From a virus, in the IMG/VR virus record IMGVR_UViG_3300042924_007408, positions 1-29,983 of that record: DNA of 29,983 nt; one strand, 5' to 3'. The notes beneath the pieces were generated by a model. That model searched no databases. It saw nothing but the letters and a program-made list of their open reading frames with translations, and was not told the origin of the DNA. Each line of letters opens with the position of its first letter. Positions within the stretch are counted from its first letter, which is position 1. Both the position numbers and the translations under genes were made by a program. Shown piece by piece: positions 27,422 through 29,931 of the stretch.

Positions 27422-27805
27422 ATGGACCACACCGACCACATCGCCGAGGCCGAAGGCGAAATCGAACGGCTCAAGGCGCTGCTGCGGGCTCGCGAAAACC
27501 GCATCGCGCGTCTGGAGCAGCGGCTCGCGGATGTCCGCCAGAGGCGCGACTCCCTGCGCGGATTCCTGCTCCAGGCCAATGCGGGGCTCCGGACCCTGGC
27601 CCGAGAGCATATGAACATTAACCAGGCCCTGTCGGACATCGCCCGGCAGCCCGAGGGCGACGAGCAGAGCGCACAGGCTGTCGCCAAGGAGGCGTTGGCT
27701 ACGCAGCGCGGCGGCTGCGAGTACCCCGACTGCCTTGATTACGATGGACGCTGCCATCCGATGCTCAAGGGGGAGTGTGCGGGGCCGAAGGGGGTGACGC
27801 CGTGA
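27422..27805 (+). CDS. coiled-coil protein with Cys-rich tail
   Basis: A 127-residue protein from ATG 27422, three bases after the upstream stop. Residues about 7-48 form a coiled coil (EAEGEIERLKALLRARENRIARLEQRLADV). The tail carries C99, C104, C111 and C119 plus H112 in CEYPDCLDYDGRCHP, spaced like a small zinc site. The last 18 bases form a degenerate copy of the recurring junction described for 27788-29548. Function unknown. Confidence 0.62.
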   Translation: MDHTDHIAEAEGEIERLKALLRARENRIARLEQRLADVRQRRDSLRGFLLQANAGLRTLAREHMNINQALSDIARQPEGDEQSAQAVAKEALATQRGGCEYPDCLDYDGRCHPMLKGECAGPKGVTP

Positions 27806-28116
27806 GCGAACAGCCCGAAGCGAAGCAGGTGCCATTGTTGGAGCGGCTTGAGGCCGTTCCAGCTGATGCACGGCTGGCTGTCAATGATGGCCCGTTCAGC
27901 ACCTCGTTTTACCCGGTCGGCGCGATGGCACACGAAGCCGCCGCCGAACTGCGCCGCCGGCATGCGGCGAACTCAACGCTGTTGAGCGCCCTGCAGAACA
28001 TCGCCCTCTACACCAGTCAGACGCATCCGGACAAAGAGGTGATGGCGCAGGTGTTGGACGAAAATGCGCGGATCGCCCGCGCCGCTATCAAGAAAGCAGA
28101 GGAGGTGAAGCCGTGA
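27802..28116 (+). CDS. small phage protein of the ARAAI-KAE family
   Basis: A 104-residue protein from GTG 27802, overlapping the upstream stop. It has a Pro/Ala N-terminal half and a C-terminal helical module AAELRRRHAANSTLLSALQNIALYTS then DENARIARAAIKKAEEVKP. The same module, with a shared ARAAI-x-KAEEVKP ending, appears in the gene at 29232-29474, so the two are paralogs. Small proteins with this AELRRL...ARAAI-KAE layout are common in phage accessory regions and have no known function. Confidence 0.68.
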   Translation: MSEQPEAKQVPLLERLEAVPADARLAVNDGPFSTSFYPVGAMAHEAAAELRRRHAANSTLLSALQNIALYTSQTHPDKEVMAQVLDENARIARAAIKKAEEVKP

Positions 28117-28280
28117 GCAAGCATTGTCGCGGGTGCCGACACCATCACAATGCCGGGCATCCAAAGACTTCACCACTTGCGCGCCGGTACAACGACTGGT
28201 GCTGCAAGTTTGGATGTACAGCGAAAAACGCGCTGTCGAGGTGCAAACTCTGGAATGCGAAAGAGGAGGTGAAGCCGTGA
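28113..28280 (+). CDS. 55-residue Cys/His-rich protein, possible zinc-binding
   Basis: GTG 28113 overlaps the upstream stop within the recurring junction. The peptide has C5-x2-C8, a His cluster at 10-12, H16, then C30, C31, C35 and C44 in a WCCKFGC...SRCKLW segment. The C-x2-C...W-C...C layout resembles small phage zinc-ribbon proteins. The C-terminus AKEEVKP is encoded by the junction repeat, which also supplies the start of the next gene. Confidence 0.6.
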   Translation: MSKHCRGCRHHHNAGHPKTSPLARRYNDWCCKFGCTAKNALSRCKLWNAKEEVKP

Positions 28281-28525
28281 TTACTGGAAAGGACCTTGGA
28301 GGCTGGCTGACTGCCCCGAACCCGCAGACAGCGATGGACATCGCACTTCGTAAAAACGAGCTCCGCGAGCGCCGCGAACGGATCGCTACGGCTACGTTGG
28401 CTGCGCTTCTGTCGAACAAGGATAATCCGTGCAGGCATGACATAAAGGCTTTGGTCATTGAAGCCTGTCGCCATGCCGACGCCCTGATCGCGGAGCTCGA
28501 CAAGATGCAGGAAAGCAGCCCGTGA
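28277..28525 (+). CDS. small hypothetical helical protein
   Basis: An 82-residue protein from GTG 28277, overlapping the upstream stop; a perfect AGGAGGTGA lies 5' of it. It has a charged helix (ALRKNELRERRERIATATLAALLSN) and a second helix ending HADALIAELDKMQ. The A-x-x-A-L-L...ADALIAEL pattern is common among small phage proteins of unknown role. Longer in-frame extension upstream is unlikely given the ribosome site. Confidence 0.6.
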   Translation: MITGKDLGGWLTAPNPQTAMDIALRKNELRERRERIATATLAALLSNKDNPCRHDIKALVIEACRHADALIAELDKMQESSP

Positions 28526-28728
28526 AATACAGGGTGACACTCAATCAGCGCATCGACGCCAAGTGGATCGTCACGGTGGAGGCAAAGGACCGGGACGAAG
28601 CGATTGAGAAAGCCTATAGCTCGTACGAGGTCATGGGCATCTACGATGGCGAGCCGGATGTCGAGATCGAACTGGAAAGCGTAGAGGAGGCCGAGCCATG
28701 GGAATCTATCCCGATTCCTACAAAGTGA
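28522..28728 (+). CDS. small acidic hypothetical protein
   Basis: A 68-residue protein from GTG 28522, overlapping the previous stop. It has a strand-helix-strand pattern: MKYRVTLNQRIDAKWIVTVEAKDRDEAIEKAYSSYEV then acidic DGEPDVEIELESVEEAE. The EAKDRDEAIEKA element recalls DpnD/PcfM-type small domains, but similarity is by eye. The following gene starts inside its last 31 bases. Confidence 0.6.
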   Translation: MKYRVTLNQRIDAKWIVTVEAKDRDEAIEKAYSSYEVMGIYDGEPDVEIELESVEEAEPWESIPIPTK

Positions 28729-28883
28729 TGCGGATGTGCGTCGAGACGGGAGTCGCTCTCGGGGTGCGGCGGGCGTTCAAGTACGATGCGCCGCCGACCG
28801 AGGATCAGATCGCCGCGAGAGTCGAGCAAGCGGTCATCGACGAGATCTGCGAGTGGTTCCGATTTGAGGAGGGGAAGTCGTGA
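28698..28883 (+). CDS. small hypothetical protein
   Basis: A 61-residue protein from ATG 28698, seven bases after GAGGAGG at 28684-28690 and overlapping the upstream gene by 31 bases. It has a MRMCVETGVALGVRRAFKY helix and an acidic helical end (EQAVIDEICEWFRFEEGKS). Its last residues EEGKS come from a slightly changed copy of the junction that encodes EEVKP elsewhere. Not recognised. Confidence 0.55.
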   Translation: MGIYPDSYKVMRMCVETGVALGVRRAFKYDAPPTEDQIAARVEQAVIDEICEWFRFEEGKS

Positions 28884-29056
28884 GCGAAGAACTCGCTGGA
28901 ATGATCTACCTCCTGACGGTGGTTGCCCTCAGCATCGGGATTTTTATCGGATACATCGCCCAGGAGAAGCGCCCCCCGCGAGGGCTGGTCGCCGCATGGG
29001 CGGTGTTCGCCCTTCCGCTGCTGCTCAAGGCCTGGTTCGCGGTGGTGCTGTCATGA
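28880..29056 (+). CDS. 58-residue two-pass membrane protein
   Basis: GTG 28880 overlaps the upstream stop (GTGA) behind GAGGAGGGGAAG. Two hydrophobic segments are visible, about residues 8-26 (MIYLLTVVALSIGIFIGYI) and 36-56, separated by the basic turn QEKRPPRG. It is a small inner-membrane protein by composition; in an early gene array it may act on the host envelope, superinfection or defence, none of which is shown. The stop overlaps the next ATG. Confidence 0.58.
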   Translation: MSEELAGMIYLLTVVALSIGIFIGYIAQEKRPPRGLVAAWAVFALPLLLKAWFAVVLS

Positions 29057-29235
29057 CAAACAATATCCACATCCCACGCTCCACGGCCCTGCACATGTGC
29101 GATGTGCTGCGCGGGATCATCAACGCTTCCGACGACGACTGCGGGGAGGAAGGATGCGAGGCATGTGCCGCGGTGCGGGACATGCGGGAGACTGTGGCGG
29201 TGCTTGAGGCTGCGCTACAGGAGGTGAAGCCGTGA
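29053..29235 (+). CDS. small phage protein, LPRAV-type N-terminus, acidic Cys core
   Basis: A 60-residue protein from ATG 29053 (ATGA overlap). It begins MTNNIHIPRSTALHMCDVL, a diverged form of the MTDNITLPRAV start found in the genes at 29545 and 29928. The middle is acidic with C39 and C42-like cysteines in DDDCGEEGCEACAAV, possibly metal-binding, and the end is a helix closing with QEVKP from the junction repeat. No function is known. Confidence 0.58.
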   Translation: MTNNIHIPRSTALHMCDVLRGIINASDDDCGEEGCEACAAVRDMRETVAVLEAALQEVKP

Positions 29236-29474
29236 GCGACATCTACGACGCCATGCGCAGAGACTTGGAATCCGCTATGGCGAATGCATCCCGCCCCAAC
29301 GCCGCCGAACTGCGCCGCCTTCGCAAAGAAAACAAGCGCCTGCACAGCGTGAACGCGGAACTGTTGGAGGCGTGCGTCTACCTTGTACAAGGGATTGAAG
29401 CGTGCGGCCTCACGGGCGTTTATCTCGATCAGGCCCGCGCCGCCATTTCTAAGGCAGAGGAGGTGAAGCCGTGA
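29232..29474 (+). CDS. small coiled-coil phage protein, ARAAI-KAE family
   Basis: An 80-residue protein from GTG 29232, overlapping the upstream stop. It holds a helix AAELRRLRKENKRLHSVNAELLEACVYLVQ and closes with DQARAAISKAEEVKP, shared with the gene at 27802. The ending is produced by an exact copy of the junction repeat. Dimerisation through the coiled coil is likely; the role is not known. Confidence 0.65.
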   Translation: MSDIYDAMRRDLESAMANASRPNAAELRRLRKENKRLHSVNAELLEACVYLVQGIEACGLTGVYLDQARAAISKAEEVKP

Positions 29475-29548
29475 GCGCACTTGAAAGGCTGCTGGCGTGG
29501 GTCTGGCGCAGGTTCATGGCGTGGGCATCGAAGGAGGTGAAGCCATGA
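29471..29548 (+). CDS. 25-residue Trp-rich amphipathic peptide between two junctions
   Basis: GTG 29471 overlaps the upstream stop, and its own stop overlaps the next ATG. Exact or near-exact junction repeats flank it on both sides, each with a perfect ribosome site, so it should be translated. The peptide runs MSALERLLAWVWRRFMAWAS and then KEVKP, a short amphipathic helix with three Trp and two adjacent Arg. It may be a membrane-active microprotein, or the remnant of a gene deleted between repeats. Confidence 0.45.
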   Translation: MSALERLLAWVWRRFMAWASKEVKP

Positions 29549-29931
29549 CCGACAACATCACCCTGCCACGCGCTGTGATTGAGCAGGTGCGTGAGGCGTT
29601 GAAAGAACTCGACTACGCTAGCGAACCGTATGTGAATGAGATAGCCCGCACCGCCCTCGCCGCCCTCGACGCCGCGCTCGCGGAGCCGAAGGAAACTTTC
29701 GCGGACTCTCTGTTTCGGCGGTCGTGGGAGGCACATCGCGCCGCGCTTGCGGAGCCGAAAAAGGAACGGGCCGAGACTGGCATCCCGGCCCGAGGAGAGA
29801 TCGAGGTCTCAACGGGCAAATCATACCGAGAACACGTCACGGACGGAAGCCCTTGCTGGTGCAACCCCGAACTGAACTACCGCGACCCCGAGACAGGAGC
29901 CGAAGTATGGGTACACAGGAGAGAACAATGA
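29545..29931 (+). CDS. modular small phage protein: LPRAV helix plus CWCNPE domain
   Basis: A 128-residue protein from ATG 29545 after AAGGAGGTGA. It starts MTDNITLPRAVIEQVREALKEL, then has two repeats of ALAEPK (near residues 46 and 67), and ends with a second module HVTDGSPCWCNPELNYRDPETGAEVWVHRRE. Both modules recur separately in other phages' small proteins by my recollection, so this looks like a fusion. The CWC pair and flanking His could bind metal. Its N-terminus is nearly identical to that of the next gene. Confidence 0.62.
   Translation: MTDNITLPRAVIEQVREALKELDYASEPYVNEIARTALAALDAALAEPKETFADSLFRRSWEAHRAALAEPKKERAETGIPARGEIEVSTGKSYREHVTDGSPCWCNPELNYRDPETGAEVWVHRREQ

Follow-up and report, generated by a model that had tools for sequence, protein, structure and literature searches.

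The right end of a viral fragment in IMG/VR (record IMGVR_UViG_3300042924_007408, 29,983 bases; here the window, meaning the whole stretch of DNA analyzed) carries an array of very small genes joined by repeated copies of a sequence of roughly 18 letters. This sequence, defined as the 18-mer GAGGAGGTGAAGCCGTGA and called the seam, comprises the end of the upstream gene, a ribosome site, and the next start. We consider it likely that the seam is a boundary sequence bounding exchangeable gene cassettes, one that renders exchange neutral with respect to translation and supplies the homology for it. That exchange took place at the seam is well supported by comparison among related arrays; the term cassette names this outcome and not a known enzyme.

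A repeated junction in an array of small genes

Along the window, genes for tail fibers, endolysin, and structural proteins give way to a replication block (exonuclease, SNF2-type helicase, primase, helicase, and family A DNA polymerase) and then to the array. A sequence-only reading had reported eight 18-base copies between 27788 and 29548, and a mismatch search of the plus strand recovered all eight with the same series of mismatches to GAGGAGGTGAAGCCGTGA (0, 0, 0, 1, 2, 2, 3, and 5; Table 1). Beyond these, no plus-strand site in the whole fragment has 4 or fewer mismatches; the next-best match anywhere in the window is a single minus-strand site with 4 mismatches, and a reversed control pattern gave 0 matches versus 5 for the seam pattern. 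Read in the frame of the upstream gene, GAGGAGGTGAAGCCGTGA encodes E-E-V-K-P-stop, and its GTGA doubles as stop (TGA) and next start (GTG). The upstream TGA overlaps a downstream GTG or ATG start (NTGA) in seven of the eight copies—again as first reported, the exception being the most diverged copy, at 28684, which stands before ATGG. The ribosome site, AGGAGGTGA, is complementary to the whole of UCACCUCCU, the 3' end of the 16S rRNA (the anti-Shine-Dalgarno sequence), and is spaced 7 nucleotides (nt) from the start, with the AGCC that follows it falling outside the 16S pairing. Ribosome sites at the remaining gene starts of the window are varied and ordinary and lack the AAGCC spacer. An inverted-repeat listing of the window has none at the seam copies, and promoter- and terminator-like matches in the window (one promoter-like and three terminator-like, the terminators all on the minus strand) are at shuffle level.

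The gene bodies between copies had been described as mostly unrelated, which holds for most of them. It fails for the genes at 27802-28116 and 29232-29474, paralogues with a common 44-nt tail (28075-28118 and 29433-29476, 86% identical), and for those starting at 29545 and 29928, which have an N-terminus and a 44-nt head in common. These pairs would fit local gene duplication, with seams as the conserved ends of paralogous genes, as would one contig (L062) in which a single type of upstream 3' end is followed by a seam at more than one place. Most seam-joined cassettes are, however, dissimilar outside the seam, which contradicts duplication as the sole cause and makes it a very improbable account of the array.

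Neighboring genes are exchanged at the seam

Among 167 distinct junctions with 3 or fewer mismatches to the seam, 23 of the 27 multi-member clusters of upstream gene ends have at least two unrelated genes after them, and 17 of the 22 such downstream clusters have at least two different genes before them. Copies in related arrays thus lie clustered at gene borders with different genes between them, as the sequence-only reading had anticipated. For example, the window's 55-codon gene ending in LSRCKLWNAKEEVKP before its stop has four different successors in four contigs, and a gene end of the form AVIDE.CEWF.FEE has five in five. In three pairs of contigs (L167/L171, L070/L075, and L040/L052), the 100 nt compared upstream, as far as the GTGA, are 99-100% identical, and the DNA directly beyond is unrelated. 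Averaged over pairs that have one upstream gene in common and unrelated genes downstream, identity stays at about 0.9-1.0 through position +3 and is about 0.26 from +8; in the mirror set, with the same downstream gene, it climbs at -13/-12. These limits on both sides imply that what unrelated cassettes have in common is the seam, in some cases extended by the following GCGA. BLAST blocks start at seams in 224 of 932 cases (30 expected) and end there in 191 of 896 (20 expected).

Fifty arrays comprise 130 cassettes, counted as seam-to-seam intervals, and 105 of these consist of one open reading frame (ORF) exactly spanning seam to seam, the shortest having 25 codons. The cassettes fall into 56 families, 16 of which are common to several arrays or repeated inside arrays; six family pairs are found in both orders, reversals with the largest family being approximate because that family is broad. 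Contigs made chimeric during assembly at a short repeat could in principle mimic such exchange, all of the loci being metagenomic contigs and no searched record being rated at least 90% complete. Yet at 18 nt the repeat falls below the k-mers and read lengths normally used for assembly, identical adjacencies turn up in contigs assembled from separate samples (L024 and L038; L021 and L032), and chimera formation would not yield a seam uniform at the DNA level, which together render this explanation exceedingly improbable.

Cassettes are also found on different backbones. Three records (G024, G025, and G026) have the window's replication block, with polymerases 82-83% identical, but array coverage is nil in G024 and confined to short stretches in G025 and G026. 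Conversely, four records (G009, G012, G014, and G017) have array pieces in common with the window and only small scattered pieces of its backbone, and the window's polymerase is absent from the long array-bearing records G004, G009, G011, G012, and G014. The cassette DNA at 28100-28280 is 93-95% identical to loci with other backbones, and 95% identical among the window, G012, and G014. Backbone and array are decoupled.

In a separate comparison, the window and contig L006 differ at 7 of 6,406 aligned bases, all within 28103-28224, a block of one seam plus cassette. This block is only suggestive of a recently replaced cassette allele, since it is close to the end of L006 and includes several alleles unique to that contig.

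Retention of neighbors at the seam, at other coupled junctions, and at a second seam

As a control, we took pairs with upstream halves at least 90% similar and asked whether the downstream gene was the same. Seam junctions retained it in 11 of 78 pairs; in the same loci, other junctions with stop/start coupling did so in 47 of 79, and those among them within 1.5 kb of a seam in 27 of 55. Counted by cluster, neighbors were retained in 4 of 28 cases at the seam versus 28 of 41 at other coupled junctions (p about 1e-5) and 11 of 21 at nearby coupled junctions (p = 0.006). Under a looser definition with a locus bootstrap, retention in the EVKP set was 0.28 (0.12-0.48) at the seam versus 0.49 (0.30-0.73) nearby.

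A second seam, GGAGGACAAGGCATGA (EDKA-stop with an ATG start), was first met in some contigs bearing GAGGAGGTGAAGCCGTGA and is found in 48 stretches with as many as seven copies each. Upstream-similar pairs retained the downstream gene in 21 of 104 cases, and retention with both directions pooled was 0.24 (0.10-0.39), versus 0.84 at nearby junctions and 0.76 (0.55-0.94) at all non-seam junctions. The records behind L021 and L040 each contain both dialects.

Loci with GGAGGACAAGGCATGA that have their own shuffled pool of small genes are L040, L177, L178, and L219-L264. Further candidate house seams, each recurring at coupled junctions inside one contig, are GGAGGCGAAGCC (L049/L068), GGAGGTGCAGGC (L055), GGAGGTGCAGCC (L073), and GGAGGWGAAGCC (L029).

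The seam is conserved as DNA and mostly clustered in arrays

The codon series GAG GTG AAG CC(G/A) TGA is present in 136 of 137 distinct open-frame EVKP-stop tails, and the lysine codon is AAG in all 137, compared with 207 of 373 lysine codons (55%) inside cassettes. Non-exact copies, which were not picked by the spacer, have A-G-C-C at frequencies of 0.68, 0.79, 0.61, and 0.71, and polymerase-related phages have 0.53, 0.31, 0.19, and 0.38 at the same four positions. Invariant codons are not predicted by selection on ribosome binding or on the peptide; they are predicted by inheritance with exchanged cassettes. Protein-level conservation of EVKP-stop was accordingly ruled out by these codons, including the lysine codon beyond ribosome pairing, and by the different peptide (EDKA) of the second seam.

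At least 80 IMG/VR stretches contain an exact copy of the 18-mer, whereas a control with permuted spacer and unchanged ribosome site, GAGGAGGTGACAGCGTGA, is found in 9, eight of them single-copy and one with two near copies, with no arrays. Among the 80 seam loci listed, 57 have at least two copies (2 mismatches allowed over a core of 12 bases) and the maximum is seven; longer records scanned whole have few copies, mostly clustered. In polymerase-related phage loci, chosen regardless of the seam, 99 of 108 locus strands have a best within-locus count of 1. We rejected ordinary strong ribosome sites as an explanation, since these polymerase-related phages have coupled genes without a common seam and the permuted control is rare and non-arrayed. 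The proposal that the AAGCC spacer is kept beyond the needs of ribosome binding thus held up, and neither chance frequency nor fully conserved gene order was seen.

A DNA search of 50,697 phage records gave no match to the window, and two cassette proteins searched against the phage record collection likewise had none; the nearest DNA polymerases to that of the window belong to Phage DSL-LC04 and HTVC023P-type pelagiphages. A longer KAEEVKP pattern had zero matches in bacterial and archaeal genomes. A 20-mer search gave 17 matches, several in Desulfarculus-like bacteria, all single and non-arrayed and thus identifying no host. A bacterial or prophage origin was rejected on both grounds.

A gene ending V(S/T).(D/E)(L/I)..EEVKP carries the same 20-mer in single copy at L202, L205, L206, L209, L210, L214, L217, and L218, its bearers being several Desulfarculus-like and related bacteria; this is probably an unrelated conserved gene border.

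A model of exchange and its main alternative

Under the model that we favor, the 18-mer would mark every border at which genes of an accessory array can be exchanged, joining an extended Shine-Dalgarno sequence, its 7-nt spacing, and the TGA/GTG overlap, with the consequence that insertion, loss, or replacement of a gene between two copies would leave coupled translation intact. Cassettes would probably be exchanged by short-homology recombination between seam copies, with strand annealing by functions of phage or host, and the resulting traffic, along with translation, would hold the seam uniform in DNA, spacer included. Separate pools use separate seams (EVKP/GTG and EDKA/ATG), and both can reside in one genome. 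We infer that seam homology drives the exchange. The sequence-only reading had cast the junction as a short homology for gene shuffling; exchange at the seam stands, with similarity stopping at its edges, but sequence comparison does not prove short homology as the physical cause. More broadly, and tentatively, many environmental phages may have an enzyme-free cassette system in which a fixed seam per gene pool combines ribosome site, overlap, and homology, with hundreds of tiny genes held in seam-defined libraries and exchanged across unrelated lineages.

Several observations weigh against a homology-driven seam. The bootstrap intervals for the EVKP seam and nearby junctions overlap, which leaves the nearby contrast suggestive rather than conclusive; other coupled junctions are also enriched in breakpoints, about 3- to 6-fold; and the loci were gathered by the exact 18-mer, which inflates the seam's apparent uniformity. 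Profiles of RecT, ERF, and Rad52 had no match in 18 records, all of them fragments; the window encodes a PHROG exonuclease and an SNF2-type helicase. Lengths of 18-21 bp are, moreover, short for classical homologous recombination.

The main alternative is illegitimate recombination at random sites followed by selection, with the seam kept as a very good coupled start and not as a DNA aligner. It predicts the breakpoint enrichment at other coupled junctions, and it is the favored general model, most phage mosaic borders having no boundary sequence (PMC3233612, PMC3029335). It leaves unexplained, however, the invariant AAG at a lysine codon outside ribosome pairing, the existence of two pools with two fixed spacers, and the rarity of the permuted spacer, which forms no arrays; borders without a seam also retain their neighbors more often. 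On balance we regard it as unlikely.

Relation to known elements

The closest known kinds of element are the boundary sequences of lambdoid phages and the start-associated sequences of actinobacteriophages, neither of which has the seam's combination of features. In lambdoid phages, short common sequences between genes were proposed as sites of module exchange by homologous recombination (Susskind and Botstein 1978; Clark et al. 2001, HK620; as cited in passages of PMC3029335 and PMC3233612). The seam resembles these in being a short conserved sequence at gene borders and in delimiting exchanged modules, whose similarity runs no further than the border. It differs in being one uniform 18-mer repeated many times per genome behind very small genes, in holding a ribosome site and stop/start overlap, and in being common to phages with unrelated backbones. 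Given the lack of DNA matches among the phage records, lambdoid phages or their nin region are not the setting of the window.

Start-associated sequences (SAS and ESAS) are repeated, over-conserved ribosome-site motifs of Cluster K mycobacteriophages (PMC3203893) and Cluster EF Microbacterium phages (PMC7302621); according to passages of these papers, they include conserved bases unable to pair with 16S rRNA, and their authors mention a possible role as recombination targets. The seam likewise lies at the ribosome-site position with conserved bases past the 16S pairing. Its sequence, however, differs from the 13-mer given in those passages (GGGATAGGAGCCC or GGGAAAGGACCCC), which is described there as mostly intergenic and partly accompanied by 17-bp inverted repeats upstream, unlike the overlapping seam with no adjoining inverted repeat. 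The same passages do not show neighbor exchange at exact edges, which the seam does. By analogy with a proposal for the Cluster K motifs, the seam might be a regulatory element at which a phage or host RNA or protein acts on translation, shuffling being secondary. Its conserved bases past the 16S pairing, an argument made for SAS in a passage of PMC3203893, and its confinement to one gene block agree with this, but most described SAS are intergenic whereas the seam is part of the upstream gene, the letters presumed to be recognized are not the same in the two dialects, and no candidate factor was identified; a primarily regulatory role is quite improbable.

Promoter-early-stem-loop elements (PeSL) of T4-type phages are also repeated gene-border elements that shuffle small accessory genes (Arbiol 2010; Comeau 2014; as cited in a passage of PMC4503421). 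They are described there as intergenic promoter/terminator motifs, whereas genes at the seam overlap by 4 nt and leave no intergenic space. Integron cassettes are similar in that single small genes act as interchangeable units with a common bounding element; they differ in that each seam cassette brings along the coupled start for its own translation and in that the seam is asymmetric, without inverted repeats, and not attC-like. A tyrosine recombinase (PF00589) was absent from the window and from 17 of 18 records, which are fragments, with one match in G017. We found no published description of this seam in the open-access literature, although one may exist elsewhere.

Whether phage mosaicism reflects recombination at short boundaries or illegitimate recombination plus selection is a long-standing debate (PMC3233612, PMC3029335), and the boundary model has been hard to test because most phages show no boundary sequence. 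Many repeated boundaries, two dialects as natural controls, exact breakpoints, and cassettes on unrelated backbones make it directly testable. The seam also marks where to seek accessory small genes, which in other phages are often anti-host or anti-defense, and is a ready part for modular gene arrays.

Features of the array

Table 1. Seam copies, other junctions, and small genes at the right end of the window (aa, amino acids)
Feature	Position	Strand	Remarks
Seam copy 1, AAGGGGGTGACGCCGTGA	27788..27805	+	3 mismatches; GVTP-stop / GTG; BLAST matches of seven loci begin at 27789-27790
Cassette gene, 104 aa	27802..28116	+	F0, largest shared family (SEQPEA...KAEEVKP); no Pfam/PHROG match
Seam copy 2	28099..28116	+	Exact; mismatch search
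Cassette gene, 55 aa	28113..28280	+	Cys/His-rich; family F3; no Pfam/PHROG match
Seam copy 3	28263..28280	+	Exact; mismatch search
Small gene, 82 aa (MITGKDLGGW...)	28277..28525	+	No family match
Decayed junction, GGAAAGCAGCCCGTGA	28510..28525	+	Weak Shine-Dalgarno; stop/start overlap retained
Small gene, 68 aa	28522..28728	+	Weak matches to phrog_9642 and phrog_14045
Most diverged seam copy	28684..28701	+	5 mismatches; no stop/start overlap, upstream ORF ending at 28728
Cassette gene, 61 aa	28698..28883	+	AVIDE.CEWF.FEE family; 3' end seen five times, each with a different downstream gene
Seam copy	28866..28883	+	2 mismatches; mismatch search
Cassette gene, 58 aa	28880..29056	+	Mostly hydrophobic; ORF list and family clustering
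Small gene (MTNNIHIPRS...)	29053..29235	+	Joint to preceding gene is GTGGTGCTGTCATGA, not a seam
Seam copy	29218..29235	+	1 mismatch; mismatch search
Cassette gene, 80 aa	29232..29474	+	Family F0; paralogue of 27802-28116
Seam copy	29457..29474	+	Exact; mismatch search
25-codon micro-cassette, MSALERLLAWVWRRFMAWASKEVKP	29471..29548	+	Family F2; also in L007, L011, L021, L064, L084, L171
Seam copy	29531..29548	+	2 mismatches; ATG start; mismatch search
Last complete gene, 128 aa	29545..29931	+	MTDNITLPRAV... family; ORF list

Within the last complete gene, an internal ..AALAEPKE.. block (29651-29691 and 29739-29795) is about 92-100% identical in many loci with differing flanks, and is possibly a second exchange hinge within the ITLPRA gene family. 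Inside the replication block, the protein encoded at 18755-19534 matches the Pam3 phage gp34-like family (PF23977, 6e-66).

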